This document shows, piece after piece, positions 1-5,430 of a DNA stretch of 5,430 nt. The DNA lies in the NCBI GenBank assembly GCA_014859225.1, contig JACUUP010000097.1, positions 1 through 5,430 of the forward strand, written 5' to 3'. The DNA comes from Candidatus Aerophobota bacterium (GTDB taxonomy: Bacteria; Aerophobota; Aerophobia; Aerophobales; B3-G15). Position 1 is the stretch's first letter. Each line of letters begins with the position of its first letter. The translations under genes and the position numbers were made by a program. Under the pieces are notes generated by a model. The model made no database searches. It was not told the origin of the DNA and saw only the letters and a program-made list of their open reading frames with translations.

Positions 1-1683
1 GTAGATTCAGGTTCAGTCTCTGTAAATATTATACTCATAGACGAGGAAGGAAACATCGTCTATGAACATACATACACCCGCCACAATGGAAAACCAATCC
101 AGAAGACAAAAGAGCTCCTGAAAGAGCTATATCAAACCTATCCTTTTGACCGTGTAGCAATAACAGGCTCAAATGGTGAACTTTTAAGTAAAATATGGGA
201 TGTTCCCTACTTTGAAGAGGTCATCTGTCAGGCAAAGGGAACCTATCATATTGACTCCTCCGTCAGGACTATAATAGACATAGGAGGAATGGATGCAAAA
301 TTTGTGGCTCTTGATGATGAGGGAGAAGTAGTGGATTTTGGGATGAACTCAAGCTGTGCATCAGGAACAGGTTCATTTTTAGACCAGCAAGCCAAAAGGC
401 TCAAGCTCCATATAGAAGGAGAGTTTGCCAGGGAGGCACTCAAATCAACAAATCCTGCAAGGCTTGCCGGAAGATGTGCAGTATTTGCCAAATCTGATAT
501 GATACATCTTCAGCAAAAAGGGACCCCTATGAAAGATATAACGATGGGGCTCTGCGAAGCTCTTGTTAGGAGCTATAAAAGTAATATTACCCGGGGGAAG
601 GAATTTAAAGGAAAGGTTTCTTTTCAGGGAGGAGTAGCGGCTAATGAAGCAATACTCGTTGCTTTTAAAAAAGTTCTTGGTCGGGATGATGTTATTATCC
701 TGCCCTATTTTTTCTCCCTGGGAGCCTTAGGAGCAGCTCTTTTATTAAAGGAAAAAAATGATAATGTGAACTTTAACCTAACAAAACTAACATCCTCCCT
801 TGAAGTGCAAAGACATAGAGGAATTTTACCAAAATTATCTCTTGATTTTGAAGATGAAAAATGCGCATACCTGGAGGAAGAATACATCTTCCCTGATACA
901 GAAAAACTCGTGGACGCCTACCTGGGTGTTGATATTGGCTCGGTTAGCACAAATGTTGCCATCATAGATAATGAGGGACAGCTTATTGCCAAATCCTATC
1001 TTCCAACTGCAGGTAGACCCATAAAAACTGTCCAGGATGGATTAAGAGAGGTAAAACAAAAGGTAGAGGGAAAGATAAGGATAAAAGGTGCAGGGGCAAC
1101 AGGCTCAGGAAGGTATATGATTGGCGCCTTTATTGGAGCAGATGTTATAAAAAATGAGATAACCACTCAGGCAAAAGGAGCATTATCTGTTGACAGGAAT
1201 GTTGATACCATATTTGAGATTGGTGGTCAGGACTCAAAATATATAAGCCTTGATGAAGGAGTTATAGTTGATTTTACCATGAACAAAGCCTGTGCTGCAG
1301 GAACAGGTTCATTCCTGGAGGAACAGGCAGAGGATTTAGGAATAAATATAAAAAAAGAGTTTGAGCAAATCGCTCTTTCAGCAGATAGCCCGAATAATTT
1401 AGGTGACAGGTGCACGGTTTTTATGGAATCTGCACTTTTTGAAAACCTGCAAAGAGGAGCTTCCATCCCGGACCTTGTTGGAGGTTTATCTTACTCTATT
1501 GTTTACAACTATTTAAACAAGGTAGTTGAGAAAAGAAGGATTGGGGACAATATATTTTTCCAGGGTGGAACTGCCTCAAACAAATCAGTTGTTGCTGCCT
1601 TTGAAAAAATTTTAGGGAAAAAAATAACAGTTCCTCCGCATAATGAGGTTCTTGGAGCAATAGGCGTAGCTTTAGTTGCCAGA
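1..1683 (+). repeat. Internal tandem duplication of the activase ATPase domain
   Basis: The two ATPase domains of the large protein are diverged tandem copies with a period of about 312 codons. The offset between matching landmarks is 309 at the first phosphate motif, 313 at the IGG motif, and exactly 312 at both cysteines and at the QGG adenosine motif. The Cys-to-Cys spacing is 40 residues in each copy. At the DNA level a 16-base identity survives at 362-377 and 1298-1313, over the codons for the AGTGSF-type loop. The rest has diverged well beyond a recent duplication, so this is an old domain duplication and not an assembly artefact. Confidence 0.85.
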
Positions 1684-4131
1684 GAGGAGTTCAATGGGAA
1701 AAGTAAATTTAAGGGATTTGGACTAACAGATGTATCATGCAAAATGGAATCTTTTGAGTGCAAAGACTGCCCCAATGCTTGTAAGGTCAATAGAGTATTT
1801 ATAGAGGGAGAGGAAAAACCTCTGACCTATGGTGATAGATGTGATAAATACAGTGGCAAGGAGGCAAGGAGAAAAAAAACTTACCTTCCAAACCTTTTTA
1901 AAGAAAGAGAAAAACTCTTATTTACAGGCTGTGTACCTCAAAAAAAAGGTAAAAAAATTGGAGTGCCAAGAGCACTGCACACTTTTGAACTTTCCCCCTT
2001 GTGGGAGAGCTTTTTTACCGAACTTGGTTTTGAAGTTATCATTTCCCCAAAAACAATGGATACGATAATTCATAAGGGGGTTGAGGTTGCTACCTCTGAG
2101 GTCTGTTTCCCGCTTAAAGTTGCCCATGGCCACGTAATGGAGCTCCTTGATAGTGGAGTGGATTACCTTTTCCTCCCGAGCATTATTGATTTTCCCAAAA
2201 CTGATGCACGTCTCAGAAGAACCTACAACTGCCCCTGGTCACAGGCTCTGCCTTATTTTGTGGATTCTGCTATCCCCTTAAAGGATTTCTCTGTTGAGGT
2301 GCTTGAGCCAAAGATACACTTAAGACAGGGAATAGATAAGGCTCTTATGGAAGTGGGGAGAAAACTTACAAAAGACCAGACAAAAATTAAAAGAGCAACG
2401 CAGGCAGCAAAACAGGTGCAAAACAAATTCTATCAGGAACTTGGGAAAAAGGGGGAGGAGGTGATAAAAAATCTAAAAGATGAAAGAGCCTTTGTTATCA
2501 TCTCACGTCCCTACAATGGCTGTGATGCAGGGCTTAACATGGATATTGCAGAGAAGATGCGAGAACTTGGTATACTTGCTATCCCTATGGATTTTTTACC
2601 TCTGGACCTTTCTCTTATCGTGGACGATTATCCCAATATGTACTGGAGCTACGGTCAGAAGATACTCGCTGCATCAAGATACATTAAAATGACAAAAAAC
2701 CTCTACCCCATTTACATAACAAACTTTGGATGTGGACCTGACTCCTTTGTAGGTAAGTTCTTTGAAGAAGAGATGGAAAGGCCCTTTTTGGAGCTTCAGA
2801 TAGATGAGCACTCAGCTGAAGCTGGTATTATAACAAGAATAGAGGCATTTCTTGACAGCATTAAGGGAAAAGAAGCCCAACCTGAAAAAGAAAAGGAACG
2901 TGTGGTTTACAATCTTCCCACAAACAACAGAATAGTTTATATCCCCTACATGGATGACCACTCCTTTGCACTGAAGGCAACCCTTGAGGCACTTGGACAA
3001 AGAGCAGAGGTTATGCCGGTAAGCGATGATATCTCTCTTTATCTTGGACAAAAATACACAACCGGAAGAGAGTGCTACCCGAGTATCCTGACAACAGGTG
3101 ATATGTTAAAGATTATAAATAAAGAGGGCTTTGACCCAAAAAAGACAGCGTTTTTCATGGGAACAGCTGAGGGTCCATGCAGGTTCGGTCAGTACAAAAA
3201 GTTCCAGGAAAATCTTTTAAGACAACTTGGCTATCCAGATATTCCCATTATATCCTTAAGCTCTGAAAATAGCTACGCCGGATATGGAGTAAAATTCACC
3301 AAACTTGCCTGGAGTGGCATATGTGCAATTGACATCTTAAGAAAGGTGCAAAGGATAATCCGCCCCGATGAGGTAGAAAAAGACAAAACAAACAGAGTGT
3401 ATGAAAAATTCAGGGATGAGGTGTGTGAGGCAATAAGAAAAGAAAAACCTCTTTATCCCATAATGGAAAAGGCAGCAGATGAGTTCAAAAAGATAAAAAG
3501 AAAAGATAAAGATAAACCGGTTGTGGTTGTTGTGGGTGAGATATACGTAAGACACAACCCCTACAGTAACTTATTCATAATAGATGAGCTTGAAAGATTT
3601 GGTCTTAAGGTTGAACTTGCCTCAATGAGGGAATGGTTCTTTTACACTAATGAGATGCACAAAGAAACAAGTGTCCAGGAGAAAAAACTTCTTGAATTTA
3701 TAAAAAACAGACTGAGGAATATCTTTCAGGAGTATGTAGAAAATCGCCTTGAGGAGCCTTTTAAAGACATAATAGAGGGTTTTGAGGAGCCGCCAATTGA
3801 GCATGTAATAAAGTTAGGTGAGAGGTATCTTCATCGTTCCTTGAGAGGAGAGGCAATCTTATCTGTTGGAAAAATCTTATCTTCCATAGAAAAAGAAAGA
3901 GCTGGCGCAGTTAATGTGATGCCCTTCACCTGCATGCCCGGTAATCTAACAGCTGCCATAACATCCAGGATAGAAAAAGAATTTCCTGAGTTTCCCATAC
4001 TCTCCTTATCCTATGATGGCTCCCGCCAGGCAAATTATTTAAATAAAGTAAGGACATTTGTAGCCCAGGTAGAAACTTACCACAGAAAAAAGAGAAAGCA
4101 AATCTATCTTAAAGCTTCGCTTCCTGGGTAA
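1..4131 (+). CDS. Tandem acyl-CoA dehydratase activase / DUF2229 fusion protein (5' partial)
   Basis: Residue numbers count from window base 1; the frame is open to that edge. Two BadF/BadG/BcrA/BcrD-type ASKHA ATPase domains come first. Copy 1 (about 1-250) has phosphate motif VDSGSVSVN (1-9), DIGGMDAK (93-100), C119 in CASGTG, C159 and QGG (209-211). Copy 2 (about 306-560) has GVDIGSVSTN (309-318), EIGGQDSK (406-413), C431 in CAAGTG, C471 and QGG (521-523). A cysteine motif follows (C587, C590, C594, C614), then DUF2229/COG3580 (about 652-950; C702, C744, C841, C911; IDEHS 934-938), a charged linker (about 953-975) and a COG3581-like module (976-1376; C1025, C1060, C1311). In characterised relatives the activator homodimer holds one [4Fe-4S] through two cysteines per subunit and uses ATP to push electrons into a dehydratase or reductase. 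I infer a cytoplasmic ATP-driven reductase carrying both roles; its substrate is unknown. Met97 (base 289) is internal, because conserved ATPase sequence precedes it. Domain assignment is firm; function is not. Confidence 0.93.
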   Translation, partial: VDSGSVSVNIILIDEEGNIVYEHTYTRHNGKPIQKTKELLKELYQTYPFDRVAITGSNGELLSKIWDVPYFEEVICQAKGTYHIDSSVRTIIDIGGMDAKFVALDDEGEVVDFGMNSSCASGTGSFLDQQAKRLKLHIEGEFAREALKSTNPARLAGRCAVFAKSDMIHLQQKGTPMKDITMGLCEALVRSYKSNITRGKEFKGKVSFQGGVAANEAILVAFKKVLGRDDVIILPYFFSLGALGAALLLKEKNDNVNFNLTKLTSSLEVQRHRGILPKLSLDFEDEKCAYLEEEYIFPDTEKLVDAYLGVDIGSVSTNVAIIDNEGQLIAKSYLPTAGRPIKTVQDGLREVKQKVEGKIRIKGAGATGSGRYMIGAFIGADVIKNEITTQAKGALSVDRNVDTIFEIGGQDSKYISLDEGVIVDFTMNKACAAGTGSFLEEQAEDLGINIKKEFEQIALSADSPNNLGDRCTVFMESALFENLQRGASIPDLVGGLSYSIVYNYLNKVVEKRRIGDNIFFQGGTASNKSVVAAFEKILGKKITVPPHNEVLGAIGVALVAREEFNGKSKFKGFGLTDVSCKMESFECKDCPNACKVNRVFIEGEEKPLTYGDRCDKYSGKEARRKKTYLPNLFKEREKLLFTGCVPQKKGKKIGVPRALHTFELSPLWESFFTELGFEVIISPKTMDTIIHKGVEVATSEVCFPLKVAHGHVMELLDSGVDYLFLPSIIDFPKTDARLRRTYNCPWSQALPYFVDSAIPLKDFSVEVLEPKIHLRQGIDKALMEVGRKLTKDQTKIKRATQAAKQVQNKFYQELGKKGEEVIKNLKDERAFVIISRPYNGCDAGLNMDIAEKMRELGILAIPMDFLPLDLSLIVDDYPNMYWSYGQKILAASRYIKMTKNLYPIYITNFGCGPDSFVGKFFEEEMERPFLELQIDEHSAEAGIITRIEAFLDSIKGKEAQPEKEKERVVYNLPTNNRIVYIPYMDDHSFALKATLEALGQRAEVMPVSDDISLYLGQKYTTGRECYPSILTTGDMLKIINKEGFDPKKTAFFMGTAEGPCRFGQYKKFQENLLRQLGYPDIPIISLSSENSYAGYGVKFTKLAWSGICAIDILRKVQRIIRPDEVEKDKTNRVYEKFRDEVCEAIRKEKPLYPIMEKAADEFKKIKRKDKDKPVVVVVGEIYVRHNPYSNLFIIDELERFGLKVELASMREWFFYTNEMHKETSVQEKKLLEFIKNRLRNIFQEYVENRLEEPFKDIIEGFEEPPIEHVIKLGERYLHRSLRGEAILSVGKILSSIEKERAGAVNVMPFTCMPGNLTAAITSRIEKEFPEFPILSLSYDGSRQANYLNKVRTFVAQVETYHRKKRKQIYLKASLPG

Positions 4132-4135
4132 GGAG
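4130..4135 (+). promoter_or_regulatory. Ribosome binding site of the flavodoxin-like gene, overlapping the upstream stop codon
   Basis: AAGGAG is a near-perfect Shine-Dalgarno sequence. Its first two bases are the last two of the TAA stop of the large gene, and it ends 7 bases before the GTG at 4143. This spacing favours GTG 4143 over the in-frame ATG at 4152, which would be 16 bases away. The overlap of stop codon and ribosome binding site suggests translational coupling, so that the two proteins would be made together. Confidence 0.8.
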
Positions 4136-4142
4136 AAAAATA

Positions 4143-4556
4143 GTGAAAGTAATGGTAATTTATTTTAGCCGTTCCAAAAAATTTAACGCTATTGCAGAAA
4201 CAGTATCTGCCAGTTTTCAGAGTAAAGCTCATCAAGCCGAGCTAATCAAAGTAGGCGAGAGTGCCAGAGCTCTAAGTCTTTTTCCCTATGACCTCGTGCT
4301 TGTTGGCTGTCCTGTGGAAGGATTCTGGGGGAGTAAATTTCCAGAAGAACTTGACAGCTTTATTGGAAGATGCACGGGTTTACAGGGGAAAAAATCTGCG
4401 GTATTTGTCTACCCCAAATCTATACGCACAGCGAAGGCTCTCAAAAAGATAATGCACAGACTTGAACAAAAAGGCTCCATAGTTATAGATTTTAGAAGCA
4501 TAAAAACAAAAACTGAGGCAAAAGCTTTTGCAGAAAAATTTGCCAAAACATCTTAA
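4143..4556 (+). CDS. Flavodoxin-like protein with a degenerate FMN phosphate loop
   Basis: This 137-residue protein starts at GTG, chosen because a strong Shine-Dalgarno sequence sits 7 bases upstream. It shows the flavodoxin pattern: strand beta-1 VMVIYFS (3-9) running into the phosphate-loop position, strand DLVLVGCPVEG (50-60) with the usual GxP turn and following aromatic loop (F61, W62), PEELDSFI (67-74), then the L-x-GKKSAVFVY strand (80-90) and a C-terminal helix (about 123-135). The length matches short-chain flavodoxins. The phosphate loop is SRSKKF (9-14), where flavodoxins usually have S/T-x-S/T-G-N-T: both hydroxyl residues remain but the GNT part is replaced by KKF. FMN binding is therefore uncertain. 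There is no signal peptide or cysteine cluster, so it should be cytoplasmic. It lies 11 bases after the activase fusion. Because activators of this family take electrons from flavodoxin or ferredoxin, a donor or docking role is a reasonable inference. Confidence 0.85.
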   Translation: MKVMVIYFSRSKKFNAIAETVSASFQSKAHQAELIKVGESARALSLFPYDLVLVGCPVEGFWGSKFPEELDSFIGRCTGLQGKKSAVFVYPKSIRTAKALKKIMHRLEQKGSIVIDFRSIKTKTEAKAFAEKFAKTS

Positions 4557-4562
4557 ATTGAT

Positions 4563-5430
4563 ATGCAAAACAAAGGAACTTTAAATGACTTAAGAGAGAA
4601 TATAGAAAAATACAAAAAAGACCTTCTGGACCTTGACCAGTTAGGAGAAAAAATTGTCCAGACTCTTATTTTAAGGGATAAGATATGTAGTTTAATCCAT
4701 ACTCTGGAACAAAAAAAAGCAGACCTTTCCGTAGAAAAATCAAAGCTTGACTCTCTTGACCATATAATAAAAGATAGACCACAGGTGGTATGGAAAAGAT
4801 TAAAGCACTACACTGACCCTGTCTCGTACCGTAAAAAACATAAGATACCTACCTCCAGCTGGTGGTGGTATGTAGATGAAATTATAAAAAGTGAAAAAAG
4901 AAGAGCTAAGAGAAGGTGGATAAAGCGAGGGACAATAGTTGCAGGTGTGCTGATAAGCCTTTATCTCGTCTTAACGTATGCTGTTCCAAAACCTGACCCT
5001 TATACAAGCTCTATATCAGAGGCTGATAGATTACTGGAGGAAGGAAAAATAAACCCGGCTCTTGAAGCCTACCAGAGGGCTATGGATATTGACCCTGAAA
5101 AACCCACTGCCTACCTTATGGCAGGAGTCATTTACGGATTTCTGGGGGAGAAAGAAACAGCGGAAAAGCATTTTACAGAAGCTAAAAAAAGGTCAACATC
5201 CCTGCATGATTTTTATCTGCAGCGAGGGATGAGCTGGATAAGACTGGGTCAGTTTTCCGCCGCACAGGAAGATGCGGAAAAAGCCGTAGAAATAAACCCT
5301 GAAAGTGCTGAGGCTCATTTTCTTTTAGGAAACGCATATGAGGCTCAGGGCAATATAGCCAAAGCTATTGCACACTTAAGCATCGTATCCGATATGGACG
5401 CTGACCCAAAACTAACAGTTATGGCTCGCT
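4563..5430 (+). CDS. Membrane-anchored coiled-coil and TPR repeat protein (3' partial)
   Basis: The frame runs open from ATG 4563 to the window edge, giving 289 residues without a stop. Residues about 5-70 are charged and heptad-like, a likely coiled coil. A tryptophan cluster (SSWWWYVDE, 98-106) and a very basic stretch (KRRAKRRWIKR, 112-122) precede a single hydrophobic segment (about 123-141). By the positive-inside rule the N-terminus is cytoplasmic and the rest is outside. At least four TPR units follow, near 150-181, 182-212, 214-248 and 249-282, with the typical A-x-x-x-Y/F and helix-ending DP/NP pattern (for example AMDIDPEKPTAY, AVEINPESAEAH). TPRs bind proteins, so this is likely a scaffold; no enzyme domain is visible. 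An in-frame TAA at 4554-4556, the stop of the previous gene, rules out an upstream start. No Shine-Dalgarno sequence precedes the ATG, so translation may rely on coupling across the 6-base gap. A link to the redox genes rests on position alone. Confidence 0.88.
   Translation, partial: MQNKGTLNDLRENIEKYKKDLLDLDQLGEKIVQTLILRDKICSLIHTLEQKKADLSVEKSKLDSLDHIIKDRPQVVWKRLKHYTDPVSYRKKHKIPTSSWWWYVDEIIKSEKRRAKRRWIKRGTIVAGVLISLYLVLTYAVPKPDPYTSSISEADRLLEEGKINPALEAYQRAMDIDPEKPTAYLMAGVIYGFLGEKETAEKHFTEAKKRSTSLHDFYLQRGMSWIRLGQFSAAQEDAEKAVEINPESAEAHFLLGNAYEAQGNIAKAIAHLSIVSDMDADPKLTVMAR

Follow-up and report, generated by a model that had tools for sequence, protein, structure and literature searches.

Archerases use ATP to drive some of biology's lowest-potential reactions, a chemistry that is otherwise linked with nitrogenase. 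All solved archerases that we found in this analysis have separate activator and reductase chains. The homodimeric activator HadI (4ehu) and HadBC (3o3m), which acts on a CoA ester, are separate proteins, and the class I benzoyl-CoA reductases BzdNO and MbdONQP (8s02, 9gai) consist of four separate chains. Complexes of the BCR and MBR types are permanent, BzdN carries a double cubane on six cysteines, and the open-site [4Fe-4S] cluster of BzdO has the ligands C95, C128 and C380 (PMC11971306). Six cluster cysteines are also found in DCCP of the DCCP/DCCP-R system (6eno, 7yyl).

The protein described here, from an uncultured Candidatus Aerophobota bacterium, has activator and reductase on a single chain. 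It is a putative single-cubane variant of this known kind of enzyme and belongs to a widespread, uncharacterised family. None of the papers covered by a literature search describes the fused protein.

Results

The window, that is the whole stretch of DNA we analysed, is 5,430 nucleotides long. The archerase open reading frame (1..4131, forward strand) runs for 1376 codons without a stop interruption and has no start codon in the window. Because the window is an entire contig, the 5' end of the frame falls on the contig edge, where the gene is truncated; most close relatives start about 8-18 residues further upstream. By profile search, two PF01869 activator ATPase domains are followed by DUF2229, and no domain is assigned to the C-terminus beyond it. 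One could argue that such a fusion is an artefact of metagenome assembly, since the draft genome consists of 273 contigs and the frame runs to a contig edge. However, independent genomes carry the same single-chain architecture, about 12 relatives of the same order as well as dozens of other families, with 27-76% identity over the full length. This rules out an assembly chimera, to which we give practically no chance.

The two activator domains belong to the BadF/BadG/BcrA/BcrD activator ATPase family. Both curated cut-offs are passed by the whole frame, each profile matching in two stretches: PF01869 with E 7.8e-74 (249 bits, cut-off 31.5) and TIGR00241 with E 3.1e-92 (308.6 bits, cut-off 125.4). 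Domain 1 lies at 4..759 (+; residues 2-253, PF01869 1.7e-36) and domain 2 at 910..1701 (+; residues 304-567, PF01869 2.6e-39). Their predicted models match solved activators, domain 1 best with DCCP-R (7yyl_F, Z 24.1) and domain 2 with 4ehu_B (Z 28.0, rmsd 2.0 over 257), so that the two activator domains of the original prediction are well founded. Each domain contributes two cysteines, encoded at 355-357 (C119) and 475-477 (C159) in domain 1 and at 1291-1293 (C431) and 1411-1413 (C471) in domain 2. Both pairs are present in 68/68 full-length fused homologues, the set on which all our counts of cysteine and motif conservation are based. C431 and C471 align with C127 and C166 of HgdC (1hux), and the two domains align with each other, from which we infer that the four activator cysteines converge.

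The ATPase motifs are intact in domain 2 but not in domain 1. In domain 2 they are canonical (DIGS, TGSGR and GGQD), and the Q and D of GGQD are both found in all 68 homologues. In domain 1 the GGQD position reads GGMD; across the homologues its Q position holds Q in 11/68 and Glu in 36/68. The GR of TG-GR is lost as well, while the phosphate and adenosine glycines are kept. Since domain 1 is without motif residues that domain 2 retains, the ATP pump looks asymmetric, judging from these alignments. The intramolecular activator pair that had been proposed is supported, but it is not symmetric.

Fourteen of the protein's 22 cysteines are near-invariant, that is kept in at least 66 of the 68 homologues: four in the activator, four in the linker and three in each reductase module. 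All cysteines named in the original prediction are present at their positions, and all except C841 are conserved, each in at least 66/68 homologues; the pattern is not due to chance. C841 had been counted among the spaced cysteines of the modules; it is Cys in just 28/68 homologues and was discarded as a cluster ligand for this reason. The activator and module sets of that inventory stand, but the linker cysteines had been overlooked. These form the motif C587-x2-C590-x3-C594-x19-C614 (1759..1842, +), which is kept in 66/68 fused homologues and absent from two. In split activators the same four cysteines form a C-terminal tail (11/11). They may bind an additional metal, either a [4Fe-4S] cluster or Zn. 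We take their spacing to resemble the [4Fe-4S] motif near the N-terminus in molybdopterin oxidoreductases, a likeness that no profile in the Pfam and PDB searches backs: matches of the linker segment to these profiles were at chance level, none significant.

Module 1 (1876..2871, +; residues 626-957) contains DUF2229 (PF09989, 8.8e-65) and a cysteine triad encoded at 2104-2106 (C702), 2230-2232 (C744) and 2731-2733 (C911), conserved in 68/68 homologues. In its predicted model, module 1 has the fold of dehydratases, DCCP and benzoyl-CoA reductases. The best match is a HadC-type chain (3o3m_D, Z 14.4), followed by DCCP (13.8) and BzdN (13.0). Ten entries of the BCR/HAD reductase family (HadC, DCCP, BzdN and BzdO chains) score Z 10.9-14.4, and the next rows, outside the family, Z 7.5. 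Module 2 (2923..4128, +; residues 975-1376) was placed by hhalign to module 1 and HGD-D. Its triad, encoded at 3073-3075 (C1025), 3178-3180 (C1060) and 3931-3933 (C1311), is conserved in 67/68. For module 2 within the 811-residue model VIA-align lists no clear family match, which is uninformative either way.

The profiles of the two modules match each other with a probability of 99.3% (E 1.1e-19), and the three cysteine pairs are all in register, one to one. In profile-profile comparison both modules also match HGD-D, with probabilities of 95% and 91% (E 1.3e-7 for module 2); reversed and unrelated control profiles all stayed below 1%. The module 2 triad falls on the three best-conserved cysteine columns of the HGD-D family. 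Aligned directly with HGD-D, module 1 matches two of three cysteines, C702 lying 13 positions away from the first conserved one, and all three are matched via module 2. The HGD-D profile itself (PF06050) scored 18.4 bits against the window fragment, below its cut-off of 28.4, and a HMMER search of PDB sequences with the reductase-half profile gave no match. The dehydratase/DCCP fold expected for both C-terminal modules is thus borne out by the predicted model for module 1, and module 2 is tied to it by homology.

Does each lobe carry a double cubane? An [8Fe-9S] cluster of the DCCP type in both lobes would be in line with the match of module 1 to DCCP, which is close to that to the dehydratase. 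BzdN, however, uses six cysteines for such a cluster, whereas each lobe has three conserved ones (67-68/68 homologues) and no further one, and the positions that match other DCCP-like cysteines are non-cysteine. Since a lobe retains just the three cysteines expected for a single cubane, we regard a double cubane as highly improbable and dropped it on these counts. The double-cubane comparison made originally was therefore misplaced, and dehydratase-type single cubanes are the fitting one.

In other genomes the same modules occur as three genes (activator with linker, module 1, module 2) or as two. The split operons keep the cysteines of the activator and linker in 11/11, of module 1 in 13/13 and of module 2 in 13/13 cases, and split module-2 proteins match module 2 of the window with E 4e-47. 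The three-gene relatives (L104-L108, L111, L112, L120, L122) have the same modules and cysteines, with the four linker cysteines located on their activator, and form their own branch in the module 1 tree (SH-aLRT 100). Their lobes are separate subunits, in contrast to the fused protein, which has both on one chain. With one activator gene, their activator is probably a homodimer. That the same modules are separate genes elsewhere supports an intramolecular activator pair acting on an intramolecular reductase pair. Together with the fold matches and the homology of the lobes, it upholds the fused two-lobed reductase of the original prediction.

Downstream of the archerase, a likely ribosome-binding site (AGGAG, 4131..4135, +) lies 7 bases 5' of the GTG of a gene for a flavodoxin-fold protein of 137 aa (4143..4556, +; PF00258 1.4e-5) with an atypical FMN phosphate loop. 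This gene is a conserved neighbour in Aerophobetes (12 archerase loci in 11 genomes besides near-duplicates) and restricted to this order. The second conserved neighbour (4563..5430, +) encodes a TPR protein, probably with a single membrane helix, and runs off the contig. Outside Aerophobetes neither fused nor split forms have a recurrent neighbour, and assigning a function by gene neighbourhood was rejected.

One could also read the protein as a conventional 2-hydroxyacyl-CoA dehydratase on one chain: the energised electron would generate a ketyl radical on a 2-hydroxyacyl-CoA, water would leave and the electron would be recycled. The cluster inventory, one cubane-type cysteine triad per lobe, matches dehydratases, and the best fold match of module 1 is a dehydratase chain. 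Yet the usual source of 2-hydroxyacyl-CoA is a CoA-transferase, and the protein's own genome, 91% complete, has no CoA-transferase (CoA_trans) match. Neither does it hold another recognised archerase or an HGD-D match; it has one acyl-CoA dehydrogenase. Moreover, no conserved fermentation genes adjoin the archerase, and the family extends across many phyla, with matches even in the Thermus and Lactococcus control genomes. An ordinary dehydratase is therefore improbable.

A link with anaerobes was considered and set aside. DUF2229 is present in 143/386 genomes searched: in 141/354 with the pyruvate:ferredoxin oxidoreductase family and in 2/32 without it (Fisher p 7e-5, uncorrected for kinship and from a sample that is not random).

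Discussion

Our analysis suggests that the frame quite probably encodes a self-contained ATP-driven Fe-S reductase, with the linker as entry or relay, then a bridged activator cluster, module 1 and finally module 2. For the clusters, the direction of electron flow, the choice of catalytic lobe and the reduction chemistry, we would propose the following. Single electrons would come from a donor of low potential, either ferredoxin or, possibly, the flavodoxin-fold protein encoded alongside. If the linker holds a [4Fe-4S] cluster, this site would be the likely point of entry or relay. A second [4Fe-4S] cluster would bridge the fused activator domains through C119, C159, C431 and C471, and ATP turnover, chiefly in domain 2, would energise it. 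From there the electron would move to module 1 (C702/C744/C911), a HadC/BzdN-like relay lobe, and on to the HadB/BzdO-like module 2 (C1025/C1060/C1311), where an open-site [4Fe-4S] cluster would reduce the substrate.

Alternatively, the protein could be a dedicated reductive activator rather than a metabolic enzyme. Driven by ATP, it would supply another metalloprotein or a cofactor with electrons of very low potential, or remodel such a target, much like the activators that serve corrinoid enzymes and methyl-coenzyme M reductase. The gene is usually single-copy, has no conserved operon partners outside Aerophobetes and no substrate pathway nearby, and ATP coupling would be permanent. But both lobes retain all three cysteines and with them, potentially, an open iron site, like catalytic members, and no client protein is co-conserved. 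We consider this role doubtful.

A bolder version of the self-contained reductase is a tentative idea at best: a one-chain electron pump with four metal sites (linker, activator bridge and two open-site cubanes) and one working ATPase domain of two. A single ATP site would drive each stroke, the activator would never leave the reductase, and the pump would serve a conserved low-potential reduction of many anaerobic lineages.

The widespread single-chain form, with its extra four-cysteine site and asymmetric ATPase pair, would offer a fixed 1:1 system for ATP-coupled electron transfer, and its family would mark a conserved reduction. The map of 14 cysteines and the split-gene equivalents make questions of electron transfer and reduction testable.

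How does the protein compare with known systems? It shares the activator fold with HadI at 30% identity, and with HadBC the fold of module 1 and the three-cysteine set per lobe. HadBC/HadI is without a linker cluster. Like BzdNO and MbdONQP, it has two unlike reductase lobes, and like Mbd an asymmetric activator pair. The cysteine spacing of module 2 (35/251) is close to that of BzdO (33/252). In contrast, His131 of BzdO, three residues after Cys128 and at the catalytic His position of benzoyl-CoA reductases, corresponds to G1063 in module 2 (Gly in 57/68 homologues) and S747 in module 1. Domain 1 is closest to DCCP-R, but in contrast to DCCP its two lobes are unlike and joined on one chain. 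From the DUF2229 / COG1924-COG3580-COG3581 'acyl-CoA dehydratase activase' proteins it does not differ: as originally predicted, the architecture is known from other genomes, and the archerase is a typical single-chain member.

Results

The open reading frame at 1..4131 on the forward strand (1376 codons, no start codon) probably encodes a single-chain ATP-driven Fe-S reductase, an archerase. The window spans an entire contig of a draft genome of 1.8 Mb, whose close relatives, where they carry a name, belong to Candidatus Aerophobetes. The protein lacks no more than a short stretch at its N-terminus, because most close relatives start about 8–18 residues upstream of its first residue. A Pfam search of the reading frame found two PF01869 domains (7.8e-74) and a DUF2229 match (8.8e-65), and left the final 500 residues without assignment.

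The cysteine map is drawn from an alignment of 68 single-chain homologues, all of full length and representing many families. Fourteen of the 22 cysteines in the window protein are near-invariant: C119, C159, C431, C471, C702, C744 and C911 (68/68), C1025, C1060 and C1311 (67/68) and C587, C590, C594 and C614 in a linker (66/68). Among these homologues, the only further mostly-cysteine column is C185 (47/68). All cysteines named in the original prediction are present in the protein, and all but C841 are conserved. C841 is a cysteine in only 28 of the 68 homologues and aligns with a non-cysteine of module 2. The prediction also overlooked the linker set, C587-x2-C590-x3-C594-x19-C614. A single-chain homologue from Marinisporobacter (L039:7974-11855) lacks the four linker cysteines as well as the module 2 triad, while its activator and module 1 cysteines are retained. 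This joint loss hints that the linker and module 2 sites work together, or else that this is a repurposed copy. Another single-chain homologue (L091) has the linker cysteine segment deleted and keeps all ten other conserved cysteines.

The AlphaFold2 model of residues 1–625 (pLDDT 81, pTM 0.68) places both ATPase domains among known activators. Domain 2 matches 4ehu_B (Z 28.0, rmsd 2.0 over 257 residues, 30% identity) and domain 1 matches the DCCP reductase DCCP-R (7yyl_F, Z 24.1). The two domains align with each other (E 3e-90), each with a cysteine pair spaced by 40 residues, and C431/C471 align with C127/C166 of HgdC (1hux). In the HgdC homodimer, the four cysteines hold one [4Fe-4S] cluster (PMC8473912). 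By analogy, C119, C159, C431 and C471 would meet in the window protein. Domain 2 carries TG(S/Y)GR and a GGQD motif whose Q and D occur in 68/68 homologues; at the GGQD position domain 1 has Q in 11/68 and Glu in 36/68, and its GR is absent. Judged by sequence, the two activator domains are unequal and the ATPase pair is asymmetric.

The reductase lobes were modelled together (residues 566–1376, pLDDT 72.7, pTM 0.68). That the C-terminal modules share the dehydratase/DCCP fold held for module 1 (residues ~626–957), which matches 3o3m_D (Z 14.4), DCCP 7yyl_A (13.8), BzdN 8s02_B (13.0), Mbd 9g87_B (12.5), BzdO 8s2r_C (11.2) and HadB-type 3o3o_A (10.9); the next, unrelated row has Z 7.5. Within the same model module 2 (residues 975–1376) has no clear structural match, and its homology to module 1 comes from profiles (99.3%, E 1.1e-19, over 316 columns), with C702/C744/C911 exactly in register with C1025/C1060/C1311. 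The HGD-D (PF06050) alignment matches module 1 at 95.2% and module 2 at 91.0%; controls (reversed profiles, activator domains) stay under 1%. The module 2 triad sits on conserved HGD-D columns, as do C744 and C911 of module 1 when aligned directly, with C702 13 positions off.

In other genomes the same modules are encoded as separate genes. Three-gene sets (for example L104-L108, L111, L112, L120, L122) consist of activator plus linker (~320 aa), module 1 (~330 aa) and module 2 (~365 aa). In two-gene sets a ~1000-aa chain combines the two activators with the linker and module 1; at L114, L115, L117 and L119, module 2 was seen as a separate adjoining gene. Split copies retain the cysteines (activator plus linker 11/11, module 1 13/13, module 2 13/13). 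The single activator gene of the split state implies a homodimer, and the two activator domains of the fused state imply that this dimer has become intramolecular. In a quick, unrooted module 1 tree, the split genes group on a single branch (SH-aLRT 100). Two-gene forms sit at two or more positions among the single-chain proteins, and hence are probably later fissions. One three-gene set (L120, genome G009) lies within the window's own order, in place of the fusion; it adjoins genes that we take to resemble V-type ATPase subunit F and a UPF0280/ApbE-like protein. In two related genomes (G247, G376; loci L103, L105) the split genes for modules 1 and 2 are present in extra tandem copies.

Eleven bases after the archerase stop follows a flavodoxin-fold gene (4143..4556, AGGAG site). 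At 12 aligned loci of the window's order, some of them near-duplicates of one genome, this gene is the archerase's immediate downstream neighbour. Its S-x-S-K-K replaces the usual glycine-threonine (T-G-N-T type) FMN phosphate loop, so the protein may not bind FMN. Related anaerobic electron chains use flavodoxins and ferredoxins (PMC8473912). Next comes a TPR gene (4563–5430, cut by the contig end), conserved at 10 aligned loci of the order; its product has a conserved WWWY motif and probably contains a membrane helix. Outside the order we found no recurrent archerase neighbours. The window's genome has one acyl-CoA dehydrogenase, no other PF01869 protein above cut-off, no HGD-D protein and no CoA-transferase match. 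A 3.7-Mb genome (G102) shows a strong expansion of dehydratase/reductase subunits: its HGD-D genes number at least 16, with 68 candidates at first look.

Discussion

How might electrons travel through such a chain? A donor would reduce the linker site, which would pass electrons to the activator bridge predicted by homology, with ATP turnover, to judge from the motifs, chiefly in domain 2. From the bridge they would move to module 1, then module 2 and finally a substrate. Module 1 is placed before module 2 because it is nearer the HadC/BzdN type by Z and module 2 has BzdO-like spacing. We hold this order of steps far more tentatively than the assignment as a single-chain reductase.

The family is already in databases and widespread: DUF2229 occurs in 143 of the 386 genomes searched, and most listed reading frames exceed 1300 residues. 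Matches also occur in control genomes from species other than strict anaerobes (Thermus composti, Deinobacterium chartae, Lactococcus lactis). Lactobacillus oligofermentans has a Rex-like site ahead of a gene for a 'CoA-substrate-specific enzyme activase' (PMC4972977). Our search found no characterised or solved member of the family.

Among known systems, BzdO holds an open-site [4Fe-4S] cluster by C95/C128/C380 and BzdN a double cubane by six cysteines (PMC11971306). The cysteine spacing of module 2 (35/251) is near that of BzdO (33/252), and the three further cysteines are missing from both lobes. From this cysteine content we infer single rather than double cubanes, a cluster inventory closer to 2-hydroxyacyl-CoA dehydratase than to DCCP. 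In the window protein a known kind of enzyme would take a single-chain, single-cubane form, to which the conserved linker site and the asymmetric ATPase pair are added.
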